Shown: piece after piece, positions 1,163-10,294 of the stretch
Position numbering within the stretch: position 1 is the first letter of the stretch
Layout of the letters: each line of letters starts with the position of its first letter
NCBI GenBank assembly: GCA_002496635.1
Contig: DAKQ01000027.1
Location: 5,115-15,408 of the forward strand
Reading direction: 5' to 3'
Length of the DNA stretch: 10,294 bases
Origin: Euryarchaeota archaeon UBA82
GTDB lineage: Archaea > Thermoplasmatota > Poseidoniia > Poseidoniales > Poseidoniaceae
Notes under the pieces: model-generated
Told to the model about the DNA's origin: nothing
The model's database searches: none
Seen by the model: only the letters and a program-made list of their open reading frames with translations
Program-made: the position numbers and the translations under genes

Positions 1163-2170
1163 TCAACGACGGCGTCGACCTGCGGACATATCCACTCGGC
1201 GCATCTTTTTCTTACCGCCACGACGTGGTGGAGGATTGTTTGCAGTTGTTTCTTCGTTACCCATACCACCAAAGGTAAGAGTTCCTTTGTCGAGTAGACT
1301 TGAAATCAATCCCTCAGCAACTTCTTCTGATTCAGCACCAGTTTTCAGGCTCTTTGAAACGGCCTCATTGTGGTCAGTCATCCATGATTTCCGCTCTTCT
1401 CGAGCCATGTTTAGTTCATCTCTGACCTTGTTGACATCTGTCATCATTTCATCGATTTTAGCATGTGTTTCGTCTGCTTTTCCTCGAAGTGCTACGTACT
1501 CATTGTGATGACGATCTCCTTCTGCTTTGAGAAAATCCCGAAGCGAAAAGGCTTCATCAACTTCTTTGGATTTTTCATCAGCACGACCAACTGCTTCAAG
1601 CATGGCCTGGTGTGATACATCAGCCTCAGCCTTGAGAGTTTTAATTGCAGAGTCGAGGTCATCAAGGTCAACTGCAACGAGTTCAAATGCTTCAACTTCA
1701 GGAGAGAGTTCTTGGATTCGACGACTCATTTGTTTGATCTTTTCCATGGTCTCTTTTTCCTTCTTAGGCCCCATTGCAGAGGTATTGTAGAGGTTTTCCA
1801 AGTTGGCAACATCTCGCTTTAATTGAGCATGTTCTGCAGATGCACTCTTTTTCTCATTCTTCTCTCCACGTCGTCCTTTAGCCTGGCCGATAATGGATCT
1901 GATTTGGTCTTGAATTGCGTTTCGCTTCTCTTTGAACAATCGGATTTCAGCTCGAATTGTCTTTACTTCTGCAAGAACAAGTTCCACCTTTTCCTTGTGC
2001 TCTTTATATTGACCTTGAATTGTGTTACGTTGATCTGCTGCAGAACGTGCCTCTGAACTGTAGTTATTACGAATATCTCGCAACTTTCGTACCTTTGCTT
2101 CCATAGCATGCAAACGGTCACGTAGTTCAGCATCAGGGCGTTCTTCTGCTTGGTCTTTGGAACCCAACAT
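1163..2170 (-). CDS. COG1340-like archaeal coiled-coil protein with basic tail
   Basis: A 335-aa protein, almost entirely charged heptad-rich helix from about residue 10 to 275, with no membrane segment or signal peptide. Family features of archaeal COG1340 coiled coils are visible: repeated RDxxN/RNxxQ segments near 31-95, a break with LENLYNTSAMGPKKEKE near 124-140 (the slot of the family's 'LEW..QT..L..E' hinge), and ADVSHQAM at 183-190. The C-terminus has SLLDKGTLT (291-299), then a Pro-rich linker and a strongly basic end, GKKKMRRVDMSAGRRRR (319-335). The basic tail suggests nucleic-acid or ribosome contact, which is inference; the family has no firmly established function that I know of. 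The ATG at 2170 is the first possible start after an in-frame TGA 27 bases upstream. The stop nearly abuts the nucleotidyltransferase start, so the two are probably one transcript. The 500-aa membrane protein ends 51 bases upstream. Confidence 0.85.
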   Translation of the reverse strand: MLGSKDQAEERPDAELRDRLHAMEAKVRKLRDIRNNYSSEARSAADQRNTIQGQYKEHKEKVELVLAEVKTIRAEIRLFKEKRNAIQDQIRSIIGQAKGRRGEKNEKKSASAEHAQLKRDVANLENLYNTSAMGPKKEKETMEKIKQMSRRIQELSPEVEAFELVAVDLDDLDSAIKTLKAEADVSHQAMLEAVGRADEKSKEVDEAFSLRDFLKAEGDRHHNEYVALRGKADETHAKIDEMMTDVNKVRDELNMAREERKSWMTDHNEAVSKSLKTGAESEEVAEGLISSLLDKGTLTFGGMGNEETTANNPPPRRGGKKKMRRVDMSAGRRRR

Positions 2171-2186
2171 ACCACTGCGTAGTGGT
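2171..2186. repeat. Perfect palindrome abutting the coiled-coil start codon
   Basis: ACCACTGCGTAGTGGT is a 6-base inverted repeat with a 4-base loop, directly adjacent to the ATG at 2170 of the 335-aa gene. On the minus strand it would form a small hairpin ending at the start codon if transcribed, or act as an operator in DNA. On the plus strand it is followed by TTTT, but no plus-strand gene ends here, so a terminator role is unlikely. Confidence 0.45.
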
Positions 2187-2221
2187 TTTGCATTTCAAAC
2201 CTATGGATTCAACAAAAGTGT

Positions 2222-3724
2222 TCAAACATTGAAAATATCGAGAAGTTCAAGCACGACTCCAAGACCTATAACCAACGAACCAAGCAACTGTCCACTTACA
2301 GATATGGAGCGGCGCAATCGTGTTCTAAACTCATTGCGAACATTGACATTGATTTGTCGACCAATCAGCAAGTCACCACTAGGCTCTTCTAATCGTACAG
2401 AAACTGTTGCATCGCCAAATCGTTCTGGTAAGAGCGTTTGCCATGCCATAGTACCATCCTGGAGCAATCCGGTCATCTTGCCAAGAACGTCTTCATTTCC
2501 GTCAACGGCAATAGGCAGTGATTCAGATGACCACCAGACTTCCTTTCCAGGTTCCAACTCGTATCGCATAGCAATTTCATGCGGACGGAAATCCGGAGAC
2601 TGTACGCGGAATACGACTGTCTTACTCTTTTTGGAAAGGTTGTGCATGAAGACAAAGAGATTGGCTCTTTTGGTAACCACATTTTCAAGGTCGACTTCGA
2701 AAACAAGATCTTTGAGTGCAGAGGGTCTACCAAATTCCATATCCTGTTCAATTCGATCGACAAGTCGGAAAAATGCTGGACATTGTGTTCTTGCATGTTC
2801 TATCAATTCAAGCCACAATTCAAGACTGAAGGAATCTTCTTCGAGCAACGCTTGTATTCCATCTTCTTTGATCACTTCTTCAAATTCGAGTTTCATAGTT
2901 TTAGAATCCATTCCATTGTAATGTCGATAGAGTGTCATCAGAATCTTTTCCCGTGCAAAATCATGCTTAACGCCACGCTTTACGTGACTTTGGACAGTTC
3001 GCATGAGTAAATCGTATTTTGATCGAAGTAACGGATCGAGATGAGTTCGAATCATGTCATCAAAGACACTTTGCAAGGTAGAAGGGTGAACGGGAGCCTC
3101 AAAGGCGTCTAACAAGCCTGATTTGTTGACCATGTTAAATCGATGCTGCCTTGTCGACATATGCAATCCAAGTGCGAGCATAAGTAAGCCCCATGATATG
3201 ATGAAGATGTTTCGACCAAGAGAAATATCAAGTCCAAAGAGGATAACAAAACCAAGACCTATACAGCCTAAAACTGCGCTTGTGAAGCAAAGTGAGTGAA
3301 TCCTTATTTGAACTTGAATACGGTGAGCCATCCCATCATAACCATGCAAAGCTTCGATGCTTTGATGTTGTTCTTGAGATAACTTGATGGCTCCGCTAAA
3401 AGCTGAATATGAGAGTGAAATTCTGTATCGATGCAATCCCAAAACCAACAACCATCCAATGCCAATAACTGAACCAAGAAGTAACAAGGTCGAACTGAAG
3501 GACTGTCCAATTGAAGGCTCAATACTTGATTCCCACCAATTTGGATCAGTTCCCTCATAGGCCCAAGAGCCTAATAAAATGAAAAGAGAAAACACTGGAA
3601 GGAGCAGGGTGAGACGCAATCCAGAGGAGAGAATCTGATTATCGATCGAGAGAAGAAATCGTTCTCTTTCCAAAAGAGGAGATTCCAAAACGGAGGGCAA
3701 GGATGAATCAACTGTCTCGCTCAC
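2222..3724 (-). CDS. Unrecognised multi-pass membrane protein
   Basis: I do not recognise this 500-aa protein. Hydrophobic stretches predict membrane spans near residues 34-54, 78-97, 146-166 and 172-190, and a last one at 477-497. The 280-residue middle part is soluble. Its first half (about 210-335) is helical and charged and includes HVKRGVKHDFAREKIL (247-262). Its second half (about 336-460) has alternating beta-strand character (TVVFRVQSPDF, EVWWSSESLPIAVDG), suggesting a beta-sandwich. The start is GTG at 3724. It is the earliest possible initiation codon: an in-frame TGA lies 63 bases upstream with no ATG, GTG or TTG between, and the next in-frame Met is residue 132. It lies 69 bases after the DtxR-family gene and 51 bases before the coiled-coil gene on the same strand. 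An even number of N-terminal spans would put both termini and the soluble part on predictable sides, but I cannot fix the orientation. Confidence 0.8.
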   Translation of the reverse strand: MSETVDSSLPSVLESPLLERERFLLSIDNQILSSGLRLTLLLPVFSLFILLGSWAYEGTDPNWWESSIEPSIGQSFSSTLLLLGSVIGIGWLLVLGLHRYRISLSYSAFSGAIKLSQEQHQSIEALHGYDGMAHRIQVQIRIHSLCFTSAVLGCIGLGFVILFGLDISLGRNIFIISWGLLMLALGLHMSTRQHRFNMVNKSGLLDAFEAPVHPSTLQSVFDDMIRTHLDPLLRSKYDLLMRTVQSHVKRGVKHDFAREKILMTLYRHYNGMDSKTMKLEFEEVIKEDGIQALLEEDSFSLELWLELIEHARTQCPAFFRLVDRIEQDMEFGRPSALKDLVFEVDLENVVTKRANLFVFMHNLSKKSKTVVFRVQSPDFRPHEIAMRYELEPGKEVWWSSESLPIAVDGNEDVLGKMTGLLQDGTMAWQTLLPERFGDATVSVRLEEPSGDLLIGRQINVNVRNEFRTRLRRSISVSGQLLGSLVIGLGVVLELLDIFNV

Positions 3725-3793
3725 GAACGTCCCTTGCGAACATGAGTCAAAAGCGTTCGTCCTGTAGAAGAAGGAAAACGGTCAGATTACAAC

Positions 3794-4450
3794 TCATTGG
3801 GTACGTACGATAATTGAATCTGAAATAGTCGAATCAAGTTCGACAAGTGTTCCATTCGTATCGAATTGGGATGAACCAAGTGATTTGATCACCGATCCGA
3901 TTGCTAATCGTTCTCCAAAGAGTCCAACCAGGTCTTCAGAAGCAAGAAGACCAACAATGGATGCTTCTTGCCCTTTTCCAAGCAAGGAAAGGGAGGTAAA
4001 TTGATTGATTTTGGATGAGATTCTGTCGCTGATCTCTGTAGTCGCTTTCGGTATGTCTCTTCCGCTTGGGTCAAATTCGGGATCTCCAAGTAATAGGGTC
4101 AATGCGACTTCTAGATCATCATCGATAGCATGCTCGAGACGACATGCTGTTTCGTGTGGATTTCCATCAAAGGGTATTCGTTCAAGAAGAACTTCTGCGA
4201 GACGATGACGTCTCTTCATAGTTCTACCATGAATCAATCCATTTTCGGTTAATTTGGCGCCTTTGTACCGTACATAATCGATGAATCCTTTTGCCGATAG
4301 ACGTTGAATCATTTCTGTAGCAGAAGCAGGAGAAACATTGAGTTTCTGGGCTAAGTCACCAGTTCTTACTCGCGAATGAGGGTCTGATTCAAAGAACTCA
4401 TACATGGTTTCAAGATATTCATCTTCGAACTCTTGAAAATGACCCGCCAT
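3794..4450 (-). CDS. DtxR-family metal-dependent transcriptional repressor with FeoA-like domain
   Basis: A 218-aa DNA-binding repressor sensing Fe(II) or Mn(II), of the DtxR/MntR/IdeR family, with the full three-domain layout. Residues 8-72 form the winged helix-turn-helix (RTGDLAQKLNVSPASATEMI is the recognition part). Residues 73-135 form the dimerisation domain, with likely metal ligands H82, E86, H99, C103, E106 and H107; these correspond to DtxR H79, E83, H98, C102, E105 and H106. E11 takes the place of DtxR M10, as in MntR-like members, so the primary site mixes iron-type Cys with manganese-type acid and the cognate metal is uncertain. LLGDPEFDPSGRDIP (120-134) matches the conserved segment ending the domain. 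Residues about 150-218 resemble the SH3-like FeoA domain. The start ATG at 4450 is preceded by GAGGGG as a possible Shine-Dalgarno. A palindrome at 4464-4477 may be an autoregulatory operator. No metal transporter gene is visible next to it. Confidence 0.9.
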   Translation of the reverse strand: MAGHFQEFEDEYLETMYEFFESDPHSRVRTGDLAQKLNVSPASATEMIQRLSAKGFIDYVRYKGAKLTENGLIHGRTMKRRHRLAEVLLERIPFDGNPHETACRLEHAIDDDLEVALTLLLGDPEFDPSGRDIPKATTEISDRISSKINQFTSLSLLGKGQEASIVGLLASEDLVGLFGERLAIGSVIKSLGSSQFDTNGTLVELDSTISDSIIVRTQ

Positions 4451-4463
4451 AGTCGCCCCTCGC

Positions 4464-4477
4464 TGTATTAAAATACA
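4464..4477. promoter_or_regulatory. Candidate operator and core promoter of the DtxR-family gene
   Basis: TGTATTAAAATACA is a perfect 6+6 inverted repeat with a 2-base centre, 14-27 bases before the ATG at 4450. On the minus strand it reads TGTATTTTAATACA and itself resembles a TATA box. A second AT-rich element, TTAATAAG, lies at 4488-4495 and would place the transcription start inside the palindrome. Either way a dimer bound here would block transcription of the repressor gene. Autoregulation is common in this family; the specific site is inference. Confidence 0.45.
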
Positions 4478-4495
4478 AGAGTCCCCTTATTAATC

Positions 4496-6994
4496 CTACT
4501 TTGCCGAAAATACTGTTGAGCAAGAAGGGCATCGCACAGAACCCTCATATTCAGAAGGTACTCGTAACTTCGAAGGACATTCAGGACATGAAATCTCAAT
4601 CTTGGCAGGAGGTGTTTCTATGATTTCTAAATCATCATCATCTTCGATTTCTTCTTCAATCTCTTCCTCGATTTCCGCTTCCACTTCGAACCGCTCAGAG
4701 CAATCAGGACAACGTACTGTACCTGAATAGTCGCCAGGAATACGTAATGTTCTTTCGCAAAATGGACATGAGCGCTCTACTGATTCAACTTCTTTCTTGA
4801 CGATCTTTTTCTTGTCCTTCTTTTTCTTTTCAGACGCCACACTTTCAGATTCTGATGAACGTCGAAGATGGAGAACCAAAATGATAGCAGCAGAAGTAGC
4901 GATACCTCCACCGATTGCTACCCATGGAACTTCAAACCCTTCTTCTTCAACTTCTTTATCTTGAACTGAAAAACTCTTCTCGGATTCCAACACAGTACTT
5001 GCAAAAGTCCATTGTGCAGTAAGAAGAAGTTCTGTTCCAGTAGGGACCTCAAACGACAGGTCGATTTTCGAGGTTGAACCCGCAGTCATTGCAGAAGTGG
5101 TCGTTTGGGCGAGTATGCTTCCATCTGAATCAATGAGCAGCATCTGTCCACTCGGGCCATTTAACTGCCCTGAGTTTTGAAGGTCAATGGTTACTGTTGC
5201 TAAACTACCCTCCTCCATTTCTCGTGGTATTGTAATCGGGCTGATGGACATCGAATAGATGGGCTCTTCTCCAGAGAGGGGCGCAGTAGCGATGTAACTT
5301 GTTGTAGAAGCAGTCCATCCTACAGGATCCATTCGTAAAATGACTTCAGTTCCAGGAACCTCACCTAAGGGCGTCTGTCCGCTAATGATTCCAGAACCGA
5401 GGGTAACGATCTGTTCAGAAACAAAAACATCTGTCCCAGAGATTCGATACCCATATCGCAACTTTACATCTCTTGTAACCCCATTATCGATTGAAACATT
5501 CCATCCTATGGTAACCTCGCCCTCTTCTTCAATAGCAATCACTTCGGCAAACATGCCTTGTTCTGAGCCAACATCCACCGAGAAGGTTCCATTCAATCCT
5601 TCGAGCACAATGCCATCAGAAGAGCGTATCATCCAATGGTATTCCTGAAGGCCTGATTGAGTAAGAGTGAACGAGAGAGCAATGTCGCCTGCTTGTCCTT
5701 GTTCGAGTGTAACAGAACTATTTGCAACGACCACATTCAAACTTGAGCGAATTTCCAAATCAGCTTGACCAGTTGAATTCCCTTGATTTCGCAGGAGTAA
5801 AGAAACATCGATGGTATCGTCAACATGCCATGGCCCTCCAATGAGCGCTAAACCGGAAGGTCCTGCTCCATCGAATATTGCAGAGTCGAGACCTTCAAGT
5901 GTGAACAATGTGATACCGCCGCTTGTTGCACCATTCCGATCCTCAATGAATATACATTCAAGGATTCCAGGACGTGCTGTGAACGTCAATAACTCTGAAA
6001 CCACCTCTTCTATAGAAAGAATGATGGATTGATTGTAGATCTCACTGTCTTGGAAATCACATATGATACGACCATCAAAGGAACGTTCTCCGTCGATATT
6101 TGATAGTGTTAGGTTGAAAGAAACATCCGATCCAGCAGTAACGTTTTGTGTCTGAATCTCCAAAGCCATCGTTGCGTTTGGCAAGGGAGGAGGGCCAATT
6201 GTAGCAATTACTGAAAGGGATGAAACAGATTGATTCATTGAAACGTTCATCCAAAGATTACCTTCTGTTGCCATAAACGTTGATTCGAATTCCAAGACTA
6301 CGCTCGAAGTGCCGTTAACGAGTACATCAACGTAGTGAATCGTCTCATTCCAAGTATCTTGCATGACATCAAGGACAAATGATGCAGTCCCATCAACATC
6401 ACCAAAGTTCTCTATTGGTATTTCTGCCTGGATGAAATCACCTTGCCGGATTGTTGAATTCGTAGTATATTCTCCAGTGGAATCAATAGCAGACAAAGTG
6501 ATTGCTGAAGTTCCTACAAAATCAATGGCTGAAGGTGCTAGGCGTTGCAATGAAACAATTGTTTCAGAAACAAATCCACTCGAGGGCTCACCAACATCAC
6601 CAAATAACTCAATATGAAGTTCCATGTATCCGATGTCGAGATCGGTCAATTGAATTAAAACCGCCTTGATTTCATTACCGGAAAGGGTGTGAGATTGATT
6701 TTGGGTCCACAGTATCTGGCCACTCAAATCGACAAGAGTTGAGTTGAGATGAACCGTACCAGCGGAGTTATTTTCTTCAACAAGATCGAGAGAAACATTC
6801 GTTGAATTCCCCAAAAAGGTCGATGAATCGTCAAAAATCAAACTTGACTCTTCCATTAAGATGGCACCACTGGAAGCCTGAACTGTTGGCAAGGAAAGCA
6901 CGGAACACAACAAAAGTCCGGCCATGAATATACGAGACAAAAATCTCGATTGGCCTTCCATACCTTGCTTGAACTCATGGGGGTTCTTGAGCAT
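4496..6994 (-). CDS. Secreted single-pass surface protein with twin cytoplasmic MJ0042-type zinc ribbons
   Basis: An 832-aa type I membrane protein. Residues 17-40 form a signal peptide (RIFMAGLLLCSVLSLPTVQA, cleavage probable after VQA). The long ectodomain (about 41-680) is beta-rich and looks like tandem Ig/CARDB-type domains (IENFGDVDGT, LLLRNQGNSTG, DLQNSGQLNG). It holds 18 N-x-S/T sequons, all between residues 63 and 499. One membrane span lies at 690-710, followed by a Lys-rich stop-transfer and linker. The cytoplasmic tail has two zinc ribbons of the form CxxC-x15-CxxC (C743/C746/C762/C765 and C803/C806/C822/C825), separated by a poly-Glu/Asp linker. The start at 6994 (MLKNPHEF) is chosen because a TATA-like box sits about 30 bases upstream; the in-frame ATG at 6961 (MEGQSRF) is also possible. 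The frame stays open further upstream to 7225, but that extension lies antisense to the divergent gene, encodes no plausible signal peptide and is rejected. Function is unknown; surface recognition or adhesion with inward signalling is a guess. Confidence 0.85.
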   Translation of the reverse strand: MLKNPHEFKQGMEGQSRFLSRIFMAGLLLCSVLSLPTVQASSGAILMEESSLIFDDSSTFLGNSTNVSLDLVEENNSAGTVHLNSTLVDLSGQILWTQNQSHTLSGNEIKAVLIQLTDLDIGYMELHIELFGDVGEPSSGFVSETIVSLQRLAPSAIDFVGTSAITLSAIDSTGEYTTNSTIRQGDFIQAEIPIENFGDVDGTASFVLDVMQDTWNETIHYVDVLVNGTSSVVLEFESTFMATEGNLWMNVSMNQSVSSLSVIATIGPPPLPNATMALEIQTQNVTAGSDVSFNLTLSNIDGERSFDGRIICDFQDSEIYNQSIILSIEEVVSELLTFTARPGILECIFIEDRNGATSGGITLFTLEGLDSAIFDGAGPSGLALIGGPWHVDDTIDVSLLLRNQGNSTGQADLEIRSSLNVVVANSSVTLEQGQAGDIALSFTLTQSGLQEYHWMIRSSDGIVLEGLNGTFSVDVGSEQGMFAEVIAIEEEGEVTIGWNVSIDNGVTRDVKLRYGYRISGTDVFVSEQIVTLGSGIISGQTPLGEVPGTEVILRMDPVGWTASTTSYIATAPLSGEEPIYSMSISPITIPREMEEGSLATVTIDLQNSGQLNGPSGQMLLIDSDGSILAQTTTSAMTAGSTSKIDLSFEVPTGTELLLTAQWTFASTVLESEKSFSVQDKEVEEEGFEVPWVAIGGGIATSAAIILVLHLRRSSESESVASEKKKKDKKKIVKKEVESVERSCPFCERTLRIPGDYSGTVRCPDCSERFEVEAEIEEEIEEEIEDDDDLEIIETPPAKIEISCPECPSKLRVPSEYEGSVRCPSCSTVFSAK

Positions 6995-7052
6995 GATGCT
7001 GAAATATGTCGCAGCGGGAGGTTTATTCAAGGTTGCAGAGTCGGCGAAACAT
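6995..7052. promoter_or_regulatory. Divergent promoter region with a shared central TATA-like box
   Basis: These 58 bases separate the two divergent gene sets. The only clear AT-rich element is GTTTATTCAA at 7021-7030. It reads TTTATTCA on the plus strand, centred about 28 bases before the ATG at 7053, and GAATAAAC on the minus strand, centred about 31 bases before the ATG at 6994. Those are the spacings expected for leaderless archaeal transcripts in both directions. Neither chosen ATG has a well-placed Shine-Dalgarno. The assignment depends on the two chosen starts. Confidence 0.45.
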
Positions 7053-7865
7053 ATGACGCCCGAGGAACTTTTGGCCATCACGCCTGAGTTTCTAGCGAAA
7101 GCAATACTCCACAGGCGAGAACGCCTTGCTTTGGAGATCCCAGAACAGCTGGATGCCAGGACAAATGAACTTACTGAAGCAGCAGCGATGGCTCGAGTTG
7201 CTAAAGAGAAAAGGGATTCAGTCAATCATAAGGTTGCATCTCTAAAACGAGAACGAAATGAAGCACAAGCAAAGGCAAAGCGTCTCTTTTTGGAAGCAAA
7301 TTCAATACGTGAAAGTGCGCCTAAGCCAAAAGGTGGCAGTGAGCCTGAACCTGAATGGGCAAAGGAACGCCTGCAGCAACGCCTCGATGCACTTGATCTC
7401 ACGCTCCAAACCAACTGGGGTACGCACCTTGATGAGCGTGCGACACTGAATGAAATGAAAAATCTTGTACGCGAACACGAAGCGTGGGTCGAAAAGAGGA
7501 AAGATTCCTTTTCTGAAATTCATAAGATGTTCGAGTTAAGAGAACAAGCGAAAAAGTTGCTTGAAACAGCTGATAAAGCCCATCAAGCAATGGTTCAACT
7601 CCATGATGAAAATCAAATCTTCCATGATACATATATCGACAATGAGCAAAAGAGGAAACATGCTGATGGGCGTACAACAAGACTTGCTCAAGCACTCGAT
7701 GAAAGTCAACGAGGTATTGATTTTTGGAAAGAGACGTTGAAATCTGGATTCCACGAATTGTTGATTGATGCAGAACGAGTAAATGAAGGTGGCAAATCCA
7801 CTCGAGCTCTTGCTCGAGAACGACGCAAGAAATCTGAAGAACAAGATGGAGGCGAGGAGGAATGA
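7053..7865 (+). CDS. COG1340-like coiled-coil protein, first gene of the TUTase operon
   Basis: A 270-aa soluble protein dominated by charged coiled coil. Residues 1-40 (MTPEELLAITPEFLAKAILH and on) may form a short helical head. A first coil spans about 35-90 (KEKRDSVNHKVASLKRERNE at 51-70). A Pro/Gly/Glu linker lies at 90-101 (PKPKGGSEPEPE). A second coil spans about 103-235, and the C-terminus is mixed-charge (ARERRKKSEEQDGGEEE). LDALDLTLQT (111-120) followed by an E-rich helix matches the hinge of archaeal COG1340 coiled coils. ADKAHQAM (173-180) closely resembles ADVSHQAM in the 335-aa protein on the other strand. The ATG at 7053 is preferred; ATGs at 6993 and 6996 keep the frame open but would overlap the start of the divergent gene. 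Its stop overlaps the TUTase start (ATGA), implying translational coupling and probably a physical partnership. It lacks the LLxKG and RVD tail of the other two coiled-coil proteins. Confidence 0.85.
   Translation: MTPEELLAITPEFLAKAILHRRERLALEIPEQLDARTNELTEAAAMARVAKEKRDSVNHKVASLKRERNEAQAKAKRLFLEANSIRESAPKPKGGSEPEPEWAKERLQQRLDALDLTLQTNWGTHLDERATLNEMKNLVREHEAWVEKRKDSFSEIHKMFELREQAKKLLETADKAHQAMVQLHDENQIFHDTYIDNEQKRKHADGRTTRLAQALDESQRGIDFWKETLKSGFHELLIDAERVNEGGKSTRALARERRKKSEEQDGGEEE
7848..7860 (+). promoter_or_regulatory. Shine-Dalgarno for the terminal nucleotidyltransferase
   Basis: GGAGGCGAGGAGG sits inside the last codons of the coiled-coil gene. The first GGAGG ends 9 bases before the ATG at 7862, a good archaeal spacing, and the second ends one base before it. 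Together with the ATGA overlap this supports 7862 as the true start and translation coupled to the upstream gene. Confidence 0.6.
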
Positions 7866-9982
7866 ACGTCTGTAGAACCACTGGTTTAACCGTGGAGCAA
7901 CAAGAACGTTGGCCGTTCCTTTACAGTCATCTTTCTTCAGAGATTGAGATTCCGTCCCTCAATGCGATGGATGAGCAATTCATTATTGAGATGGACAAGG
8001 AGATTTCAAGAATACTCAAACATATCGGAGATGGTAAAGCCAAAAGTAGAGAATCACTTACTCGCCACCTTAAGGGTTTATTACAGAGGAGATTCCAGAG
8101 AAACGCCAAGGTTGAGGCATTCGGTTCATCCGTCACAGGATTATCACTAGGGACTGGTGATCTCGACCTTTGTTTGTCTTTCAAGAAAGAACAACCGAAG
8201 AAGGTATTGAGAAAAGTCGCCGGGCTCTTAAGGGAAGAAGGCATGATGGATATTCAACAAATTCCTAGGGCGAAAATTCCAATTGTGAAATTCAATGACT
8301 CACGCTCTGGTCTTGATGTGGACATATCAATCGAAAACCGATTAGCGATTCACAACTCAAAGATGCTCAAGTCCTATGCCCAGGATAAGCGTGTGCGTGA
8401 ATTTATTCTAATGATAAAGTACTGGGCGAGTAGAAGAGGCATCAATACTGCGTATGAAGGGACTCTCTCTTCCTATGCATGGACCTTAATGAGCATCCAA
8501 CATTTGCAGATGACAAACCCACCTGTTGCCCCAAATAGGCAAAGTGGAAACAAACCAAATTTGGTTGAAATAAATGGAGAGTTATATGACATTTCAAATG
8601 ATTCTTCTCCATTTGATTCAGAGAATAAACAATCATTAGCTTTGCTCCTAATTACATTCTTTGATCGATTCGCAACCCGATGGGATTGGAATGAAATGGT
8701 TGTTTCAATACGGAATGGTGGCCCATTAAATGCCGAAAAGAAGCGATGGACACACACTGGCCCACTTCCGCTTGAAGTTGTTACGGGACAATCCAAGAAT
8801 CGAATGGAACATGTCATGCCAATCGAAGATCCCTTCGACCATGAACATGATTTGTCTAGGATTGTCAAAGCAGAAGGTGCCATGACAATCCAAGAGGAGT
8901 TCATGCGTGCATTACATCTCCTATCTGAAGGAAAATCCTGGAAAGAGATTTGCACCCCTGTTATGGAAATAGACGAAGAACCTGAAGACTTTTTCCATGA
9001 TTTGAGAACTCAAAATATTGATCTCTTGAAACAAAGTCTTGAAGAAATGAAATTAGAGGTTACTCAAGTTGAAGAGCACATACAATCACTGGTTACAGAG
9101 CGTCAAAACTCCAAAGAACTGTTGGATCTTTTGCGTGGAACGCTGCAAGAAACAAGAAACGTCAAATCAAATCGACAATCTATACTTGCTGAATTACGAC
9201 CATTGAGCATGAAAGTACAGGAATTACGCCAAACACGAGACGGAATCAATGAACGCATTGCAATTCCAACAAAACGAATCCGACAAGAAATGGTTCGTAT
9301 GTTTGATTCTCTTACCGCAGAAGTCGACGTATTCAATACGCAAAACCTTGGAAAGGAGAAAGGAGATTTCTCGTATTTCTTTGAATTACAAGCAATGTAC
9401 AAAGCCTCAATTCAGTCAAATGAAGTACATCAGGAGTTCATTCGATTGCGAAGAGAGCAAAATAAGGAATACAAAGCCCTCAAGAAAACCAATTCAAAAG
9501 AGGAAGATGTGCTTAATCGTCTTATCGAGAAGAACCCTGAACTCAAAGGCATTAATCTCCATCCAAAAACTGTCAAAGAGTTTCAACAAAACGCAAATAA
9601 ATTACAAAAATCCATCAACATCCAATATTCCAAGAAACATGAAGTAAGGCGGGAAATAGGACGAATTGAAGCATGGATACGCATTGCTACGAGTAAAGGG
9701 AAGCAACGCTCAAAGCGAGATTCTAAACCTCGAACTACCCGGCGTCAGGCACCTGCTGTCAACATTAACGAGGTTCGGGAACGAGCTTCAACCGGAGGTT
9801 CATTTTCACTCAATGAACTCGATGCTTTGTTGTCCAAGGGTGGAATTTCTGGTATTGAATCAAAAGATAAAGCATCAACTTCAAATCAATCCGATAGAAA
9901 GAAATCTGGGCGTAAGAAATCCACATATCGTGTAGATCTTAGACAAGGTCGAAAACGTGGCAAAAAGCAATCACGGAAGTGA
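7862..9982 (+). CDS. Cid1/TRF4-like terminal nucleotidyltransferase fused to a COG1340-like coiled coil
   Basis: Predicted to add nucleotides, probably UMP, to RNA 3' ends. The 706-aa protein has three parts. Residues about 36-215 are a polymerase-beta-type catalytic core: FGSS (87-90), then GDLDL with catalytic D100 and D102, and D154 in LDVDISIENRLAIHN as third carboxylate. IKYWASRRGIN (185-195) and YEGTLSSYAW (198-207) match the signature of eukaryotic Cid1/TUT and TRF4 enzymes. Residues about 256-330 are the PAP/25A-associated domain (SLALLLITFFDRF, VVSIRNGG, IEDPFDHEHD). N165, K186, Y205 and D323 fall where Cid1 contacts the nucleotide. H329 falls where Cid1 has His336, which selects uracil. 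Residues about 375-610 are coiled coil, followed by LLSKGGIS (656-663) and a basic tail with RVDLRQGRKR (690-699). The coiled-coil tail is not found on eukaryotic members I know of. Catalytic residues all appear intact, with no frameshift. The gene is ATGA-coupled to the coiled-coil gene upstream, and a GNAT-like gene follows 4 bases after its stop. An adenylyltransferase is the main alternative. Confidence 0.88.
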   Translation: MNVCRTTGLTVEQQERWPFLYSHLSSEIEIPSLNAMDEQFIIEMDKEISRILKHIGDGKAKSRESLTRHLKGLLQRRFQRNAKVEAFGSSVTGLSLGTGDLDLCLSFKKEQPKKVLRKVAGLLREEGMMDIQQIPRAKIPIVKFNDSRSGLDVDISIENRLAIHNSKMLKSYAQDKRVREFILMIKYWASRRGINTAYEGTLSSYAWTLMSIQHLQMTNPPVAPNRQSGNKPNLVEINGELYDISNDSSPFDSENKQSLALLLITFFDRFATRWDWNEMVVSIRNGGPLNAEKKRWTHTGPLPLEVVTGQSKNRMEHVMPIEDPFDHEHDLSRIVKAEGAMTIQEEFMRALHLLSEGKSWKEICTPVMEIDEEPEDFFHDLRTQNIDLLKQSLEEMKLEVTQVEEHIQSLVTERQNSKELLDLLRGTLQETRNVKSNRQSILAELRPLSMKVQELRQTRDGINERIAIPTKRIRQEMVRMFDSLTAEVDVFNTQNLGKEKGDFSYFFELQAMYKASIQSNEVHQEFIRLRREQNKEYKALKKTNSKEEDVLNRLIEKNPELKGINLHPKTVKEFQQNANKLQKSINIQYSKKHEVRREIGRIEAWIRIATSKGKQRSKRDSKPRTTRRQAPAVNINEVRERASTGGSFSLNELDALLSKGGISGIESKDKASTSNQSDRKKSGRKKSTYRVDLRQGRKRGKKQSRK

Positions 9983-9986
9983 TTCC

Positions 9987-10294
9987 ATGGATGTATCTTG
10001 GCGAGAAGGTCTTTCTCCAAAAGAGCTTACAATAGAATGGATAAAAACCATCCAAGAATTGTTTCTGGAAGGAACCGGTGAGCAATACTTTGCAGGTTCA
10101 ATACAAGCGTTACCTATTCCAAATTGGGAAGGAAATCTAATGCTTTTTGATTCAATCGAAAAAACACCTACATCGATGCGAGGACTCCTATGGACGGCTC
10201 CTTTCAAGGAAGATACAGTTCGAATTGTTTCATTTGTACTCGATGCAGGTTCCAGAAACAAAGGATGGGGCAGCCAAGCATGGAACAAACTTGT
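9987..10294 (+). CDS. Partial CDS, GNAT-like N-acetyltransferase
   Basis: The first 102 codons of a gene that leaves the window at the right edge, starting MDVSWREGLSPKELTIEW. The segment RIVSFVLDAGSRNKGWGSQA near residues 79-98 resembles GNAT motif A: a beta-strand followed by the acetyl-CoA pyrophosphate-binding loop (R/Q-x-x-G-x-G/A, here RNKGWG) and the start of a helix. Upstream, NLMLFDSIE and MRGLLWTAPF fit the beta-strands before motif A. The acceptor substrate cannot be predicted. The ATG lies 4 bases after the TUTase stop, and GGAAGTGA just before it may serve as a weak Shine-Dalgarno, so co-transcription with the TUTase is very likely. The C-terminal half, including motif B, is missing only because the window ends. 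Confidence 0.7.
   Translation, partial: MDVSWREGLSPKELTIEWIKTIQELFLEGTGEQYFAGSIQALPIPNWEGNLMLFDSIEKTPTSMRGLLWTAPFKEDTVRIVSFVLDAGSRNKGWGSQAWNKL

Follow-up and report, generated by a model that had tools for sequence, protein, structure and literature searches.

The gene at 7862..9982 on the forward strand of the DNA analysed here (the window: 10,294 nucleotides of contig DAKQ01000027.1 from Euryarchaeota archaeon UBA82, family Poseidoniaceae) appears to encode a terminal nucleotidyltransferase of the Cid1/URT1 type joined to a coiled-coil protein of Poseidoniales, and is predicted to uridylate RNA 3' ends, likely marking the RNAs for decay; we assign this reading a probability of about 0.68. 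Judging from its sequence, the protein is most likely a uridylyltransferase steered by its coiled coil. In the proposed mechanism, D100, D102 and D154 would hold two metal ions and uridine monophosphate would pass from uridine triphosphate (UTP) to the RNA 3' end. Together with the coiled-coil protein encoded upstream, the basic coiled coil would bring the core to an RNA or ribonucleoprotein, presumably one that was a target of the resident coiled-coil protein since before the fusion. In the weakest step, the short U tail could provide a landing site for 3'-5' exonucleases, either the exosome or an RNB enzyme resembling RNase R. The elements of the gene are as follows.

7862..9982, +, fusion gene, terminal nucleotidyltransferase and coiled-coil protein, 706 residues, one unbroken open frame
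7949..8971, +, terminal nucleotidyltransferase core, residues ~30-370
8120..8170, +, FGSS...GDLDL with the metal-binding D100 and D102, kept in 107/107 full-length and 32/33 cross-genus copies
8321..8323, +, third catalytic Asp, D154, kept in 107/107 full-length and 32/33 cross-genus copies
8633..8848, +, PAP-associated domain with the nucleotide recognition motif, residues 258-329 (PF03828)
8846..8848, +, H329, paired with the UTP-selecting H336 of Cid1 in a pairwise alignment
8984..9979, +, coiled-coil domain and basic disordered tail, residues 375-706, whose free-standing ortholog occupies this locus in related genomes

Domain identity and active site

The first-pass annotation, made from the DNA letters alone, had described an intact 706-residue frame with motifs of terminal uridylyltransferases (TUTs) and proposed a search with PF03828 and nucleotidyltransferase profiles. 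The frame is indeed single and its Pfam matches lie far beyond chance: the protein matches MTPAP-like_central with an E-value of 2.1e-28 and PAP_assoc (PF03828) with an E-value of 2.1e-12, both over the Pfam cut-offs. The Pol-beta nucleotidyltransferase palm, PF01909, is matched as well, and a search of NCBIfam returns no family over cut-off. The nearest solved structures are those of URT1, TUT4/7 and Cid1 (a phmmer search against PDB chains identifies Arabidopsis URT1 with an E-value of 4e-45, TUT4 with 1.4e-44 and Cid1 with 6.5e-39). Superposition of the AlphaFold model on URT1 gives 1.9 Å across 317 residues, and the overall fold of the catalytic module matches that of the Cid1/TUT terminal uridylyltransferases. 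The enzyme family assignment concerns the N-terminal core; the C-terminal half, missed in the first-pass annotation, is a separate archaeal coiled-coil protein.

Full-length orthologs of the fusion are present across Poseidoniaceae genera, and some Poseidoniales proteins of this type have been annotated by the Joint Genome Institute as DNA polymerase sigma. Both halves are under purifying selection: the ratio of nonsynonymous to synonymous substitution rates (dN/dS) is 0.02-0.08 in 5 of 6 comparisons (three genome pairs by two protein halves, orthologs ~90% identical), with dS mostly saturated and the sixth comparison not computable.

The motif residues are FGSS (87-90), GDLDL (99-103), LDVDIS (151-156), GTLSSYAW (200-207) and IEDPF (321-325), the last followed by DHEHD; the spacer between FGSS and GDLDL is 8 residues, not 9 as first counted. 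D100, D102, D154 and H329 are invariant in all 107 homologs of at least 660 residues among the best 120 of 217 matches, most of which are close relatives. A cross-genus set of 33 copies (the window and 32 loci from hand-picked Poseidoniaceae genomes) retains the Asp triad in 32, the sole exception being the copy in genome G028, and has His at the position of Cid1 H336 in 27. The G028 copy (locus L050, 7552-9546) is still fused to the coiled coil but no longer has GS and Asp motifs, and is likely a pseudo-enzyme.

The position of H329 is the one that selects the base. H336 of Cid1 chooses UTP, and replacement by Ala or Asn results in poly(A) polymerase activity (PMC4357723). CutA of Aspergillus has Arg at this position and prefers cytosine (PMC7498324), whereas GLD-2, which has no His there, prefers ATP (PMC7470959). 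In pairwise alignments, H329, which directly precedes an Asp, pairs with a His in Schizosaccharomyces Cid1 (entry P0185) and in amoebal, haptophyte and plant relatives; it pairs with Asn in the S. pombe entry P0188, which, from its numbering, we read as the published H336N mutant chain. Unlike CutA and the GLD2 chain, the window protein thus has a His at the recognition position, and given these comparisons a preference for UTP is predicted.

Archaeal residence and history of the fusion

The gene is at home in this archaeal lineage. Among 60 related genomes, the window genome included, the full query is matched in 53; 25 of these matches (among them the window genome itself, one copy cut by a contig end and the degenerate G028 copy) extend into the nucleotidyltransferase half, and 28 cover the C-terminal half only. 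The nucleotidyltransferase half is found in 24 of the 36 genomes of the family, the window genome counted, plus the one degenerate copy. The family and its sister have been named Poseidoniaceae (MGIIa) and Thalassarchaeaceae (MGIIb) (PMC6461757), and we infer that the sister group in our set (f2) is the latter. Profile searches with PF22600 and PF03828 covered the phylum of the window and control genomes. PF22600 is matched in 23/36 genomes of the family and in 0/24 of the sister family, although by itself it is unspecific (it is also matched in 4/14 controls, over cut-off in 1). PF03828 is matched in 51/389 genomes of the phylum and 0/14 controls: 50 are Poseidoniaceae, and the only match outside the family, in G208, lies in a frame full of stop codons. 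PAP_assoc is accordingly confined to Poseidoniaceae in the sampled phylum, where it occurs in 50/72 genomes of the family (a denominator that assumes the same 389 genomes in the PF03828 and RNB searches). Of the 23 other genomes of the same genus, 6 give no match; all six are 67-83% complete, so absence is not inferred. The fusion gene is also present in G033, a genome assembled as a single contig of 2.06 Mb, and the named archaeal proteins among the 120 of 217 matches listed, P0071 and P0081, share 66-69% identity with the window protein. The earlier claim of a Cid1/TUT-type enzyme in a truly archaeal genome is therefore upheld by the agreement of profiles, PDB matches, conserved locus and single-contig genome.

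The C-terminal half has a free-standing ortholog, which lacks the nucleotidyltransferase and occupies this locus in the sister family as well as in some members of Poseidoniaceae. Since this half exists alone at the same locus, the nucleotidyltransferase appears to have been joined onto a resident archaeal gene. In the structure model the C-terminal half forms long helices at residues 386-465, 496-557 and 568-618, and its tail (615-706) has an isoelectric point of 11.5. A profile of the free-standing form is matched in 41/42 genomes of the family and 38/39 of the sister family, in 0/6 of another family of the class, and weakly in 11 of the remaining 205 genomes. No nucleotidyltransferase remnants are detected beside the coiled-coil-only genes in 16 loci; the 17th locus searched was that of the degenerate G028 copy, which was found. 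In a coiled-coil tree rooted with the sister family (39 of 49 rows after removal of 10 near-duplicates, with g4 and one g9 row on long branches), the presence of the catalytic half requires at least 3 changes. Most simply, there was one early gain in Poseidoniaceae, with losses in the g2/g5 line, perhaps in g4, and in part of g9. After the fusion, the nucleotidyltransferase degenerated in one genus and disappeared from others.

The nearest named proteins beyond Poseidoniales are eukaryotic (amoeba, 35%; haptophyte, 38%; plants; fungi) among the best 120 of 217 matches. In a tree of 66 rows (17 of 23 archaeal proteins, 45 of 90 other proteins and 4 PDB chains), the archaeal rows form one group (support 97/99) outside a group of 46 rows that contains URT1 and Cid1 (88/79); 18 of the 45 other proteins have an assigned organism name, and "eukaryotic" for the rest is our own label. 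In a second tree of 42 rows (11 archaeal proteins, 21 from the same pool of other proteins and 10 PDB chains) with canonical poly(A) polymerase as the outgroup, the archaeal rows lie at the base of URT1, Cid1, TUT4/7, GLD2, mtPAP and TUT1, with yeast TRF4 outside; they form two successive groups, a single group being recovered in 11% of the bootstrap trees, and the canonical enzyme and TRF4 are on long branches, flagged as a possible artefact. A topology with the 29 eukaryotic non-canonical rows as one clade and the archaea outside is not rejected (approximately unbiased test, p = 0.237). A recent transfer from an alga or amoeba was considered and dropped, there being no nesting inside any one eukaryotic clade in either tree. 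Given the narrow distribution in archaea, a transfer from a eukaryote is favoured, although the trees do not show it. The suggestion that the gene bears on the origin of eukaryotic uridylation is accordingly not established, with archaeal rows placed below TUT, GLD2 and mtPAP and the outside position at p = 0.237. We consider it rather unlikely that all of the following hold together: genuine RNA uridylation in Poseidoniaceae, the first in archaea, by an enzyme hard-wired to a coiled-coil RNA-protein factor, with base choice diversified between genera and the enzyme a deep sister of TUT, GLD2 and mtPAP. If the deep-sister position were true, the archaeal enzymes could represent the source of eukaryotic RNA tailing or a lineage that branched off it early.

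Predicted function and competing explanations

Candidate enzymes for the decay step are available. RNase PH-type genes are present in 60/60 genomes. The window genome has three, an adjacent exosome-like pair and a separate third of ~281 residues, as do many of the 60. Among the Poseidoniaceae, 53/72 genomes have an RNB exonuclease, and the sister family gives no match; of 69 matches in 389 genomes, the remaining 16 are outside Poseidoniaceae. In the window genome these genes are located as follows.

G000:C70:13273-13656 and G000:C114:8812-9965, RNase PH-type genes
L090 1986-4241 (G000:C161), -, RNase R-like RNB exonuclease, adjoining a DnaJ-like gene

A number of observations weigh against uridylation that leads to decay. 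The RNB protein is nearer RNase R than Dis3L2, and falls under the cut-off of the RNase R model. Its coupling to PAP_assoc is loose (both in 40 of the 72 Poseidoniaceae genomes, PAP_assoc only in 10, RNB only in 13, neither in 9), with a Fisher p = 0.084 uncorrected for relatedness. LSM proteins (PF01423), possible U-tail binders, are not found in the window genome or G033, whereas 3 archaeal controls are positive. The decay step is thus the weakest part, given the weak RNB association and the lack of LSM in these two genomes. Six of the 33 cross-genus copies do not have His at the position of Cid1 H336: Arg in G029 (L048) and G304 (L076), Ile in G030 (L022), Val in G396 (L081), Leu in G392 (L082) and Tyr in the degenerate G028 copy; apart from the degenerate copy, such lineages probably add a different base. 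The enzyme is dispensable, having decayed in G028 and being missing from several Poseidoniaceae genera, among them those of G024 and G027. Finally, a Foldseek search with the coiled coil identifies generic coiled coils only, none at E <= 0.001, and no RNA-binding fold is recognised. Two more specific proposals were discarded: a fixed partnership with the RNB exonuclease, suggested by 24/60 genomes all of the own family and contradicted by the 16 outside-family genomes in the set of 389 and by p = 0.084; and LSM proteins as readers of the U tail, with none in the 2 genomes searched.

An enzyme of the same family could instead add A, C or mixed tails, like GLD-2, TRF4 or CutA. This is a serious if unlikely possibility, considering that the window protein has His329 followed by Asp, that the His is shared with Schizosaccharomyces Cid1 (P0185) and with amoebal, haptophyte and plant relatives, and that it is kept in 107/107 full-length rows, mostly close relatives. 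Quite improbable is that the nucleotidyltransferase half serves as a non-catalytic RNA-binding scaffold for the coiled coil: the G028 copy without GS and Asp motifs and the relatives without the whole domain are compatible with such a role, but the three Asp are kept in 32/33 cross-genus rows and dN/dS of the core is low. Contamination of the contig or gene by eukaryotic DNA, which the eukaryotic identity of the nearest named relatives outside Poseidoniales among the matches listed might suggest, has next to no likelihood and is refuted by the gene's presence in the single-contig G033 and in 24/36 genomes of the family plus one degenerate copy, by the shared neighbours at the locus, and by the free-standing half-protein in the sister family.

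A CCA-adding or tRNA-repair enzyme substituting for the missing archaeal class I enzyme is an extremely improbable alternative. The class I enzyme is indeed not found in Poseidoniales genomes (PF09249 in 0/2, TIGR03671 in 0/8, with 4 archaeal controls over cut-off), but a bacterial-type CCA/PolyA_pol enzyme is present in 7/8, with or without the fusion gene, and missing only from the incomplete window genome; the window protein matches no CCA family, TIGR03671 and PF09249 included; and the sister-family genomes, with PF22600 in 0/24, must mature tRNA otherwise. The CCA-adding role was dropped once the class II enzyme was found in 7/8 genomes. A signalling or defence nucleotidyltransferase (OAS, CD-NTase, MiniNT toxin or antitoxin) has the Pol-beta palm (PF01909) in common with the window protein and is likewise hardly credible: PAP_assoc and TUT matches dominate, PADLOC defence models give 0 matches at E <= 0.01 and PHROG none, and the neighbourhood is stable and syntenic, with no mobile island. 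The results that the first-pass annotation had named as counting against its own reading are absent: there is no CCA-enzyme match, no defence-model match and no contamination. Its premise that class I CCA-adding enzymes are the archaeal norm does not extend to this order (0/8 genomes, the bacterial type in 7/8), where a bacterial-type class II enzyme apparently replaces class I; the carriers are G033, G029, G031, G024, G037, G044 and G054.

An archaeal uridylyltransferase would differ from the known tailing systems. URT1 of Arabidopsis is a plant enzyme, whereas the window protein is archaeal and shows no close plant kinship in the tree. We take URT1 to have an N-terminal extension where the window protein has instead a C-terminal archaeal coiled coil, and fission yeast Cid1, unlike the window protein, presumably has no fused coiled-coil domain. 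The archaeal exosome, whose fold we assume to be unrelated to that of the window nucleotidyltransferase, is a phosphorolytic enzyme that works in reverse and makes A-rich heteropolymeric tails from nucleoside diphosphates. To our knowledge, the use of 3' uridylation to signal RNA fate is regarded as eukaryotic. It is so treated in the title of PMC4442281; the archaeal exosome also puts 3' tails on RNA, and the archaeal tails described so far are products of the exosome running backwards (PMC4227792).

In the literature searched, with most subscription journals outside its coverage, no description of an archaeal Cid1/TUT enzyme was found, and the main text of some Marine Group II genome papers contains no nucleotidyltransferase or uridylyl- wording. 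Enzymes of this type are known. What is new relative to that literature is their occurrence in archaea, the fusion, and the series of syntenic loci with and without the enzyme. If the prediction is true, archaea gain a nucleotidyltransferase-made RNA tail, and they do so in a group that ranks among the most abundant archaea of surface seawater. With the coiled coil kept without the enzyme in sister lineages and recognition residues changed in others, these lineages offer a natural comparison for asking which RNA is tailed and why.

Gene neighbourhood and coiled-coil paralogs

Three further genes of the window are relevant.

7053..7865, +, upstream coiled-coil gene, DUF7121-like, with a 4-base ATGA overlap with the fusion gene; start inferred from orthologs
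9987..10294, +, downstream acetyltransferase-like gene, truncated by the window edge; start inferred; clusters with proteins of which one matches GNAT (PF00583)
1163..2170, -, another coiled-coil paralog (cluster c0), at the opposite side of the conserved cluster, with a 97.0% profile match to the fusion coiled coil

The related-locus search identifies 5 close Poseidoniales loci. For the neighbourhood comparison, 20 related loci from 14 genera were fetched: 10 contain the coiled coil alone (5 of these from the sister family), 9 the fusion and 1 the degenerate fusion. The divergent gene c1 flanks the fusion or coiled-coil gene in 20/20, and an ortholog of the upstream coiled-coil gene is called in 15/20. 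PF23435 (DUF7121) is matched by the longer frame 6924-7862 of the upstream gene (E 1.9e-8), and not by its ortholog in L054 or by the fusion protein, though some neighbours match it. The downstream acetyltransferase-like piece within the window has zero Pfam matches by itself. Profile-profile comparison of the fusion coiled coil, in which scores of coiled coils run inflated, gives 97.0% over 276 columns with the neighbouring paralog c0a, 62.7% with the upstream gene family and 22.1% with the second paralog c0b; similarity to the DUF7121-like genes is weak or slight.

The fusion to a tailing-type enzyme hints that archaeal coiled-coil proteins of this class may act on RNA or ribonucleoproteins. 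We take DUF7121 to correspond to arCOG01159, and TK2157 of Thermococcus to be presumably a member of the same coiled-coil class, the latter assumption resting partly on the source for that family. The arCOG01159 protein is listed as uncharacterised and is present in 492/524 archaeal genomes (PMC6393860). TK2157 appears in a list of chromosome-fraction proteins alongside ribosomal proteins (PMC7325993), and this fractionation may be a weak hint to the function of the class.

The coiled-coil genes of the 1163-9982 cluster comprise 1163-2170 (-), 7053-7865 (+) and the fusion gene; relatives add a gene of ~300 residues, which often adjoins a DUF1246/DUF1297 gene. A small C-terminal motif of the type GGSLSLEDLxALLxxGGLS recurs in the fusion family, and looser forms of it are seen in the coiled-coil paralogs.

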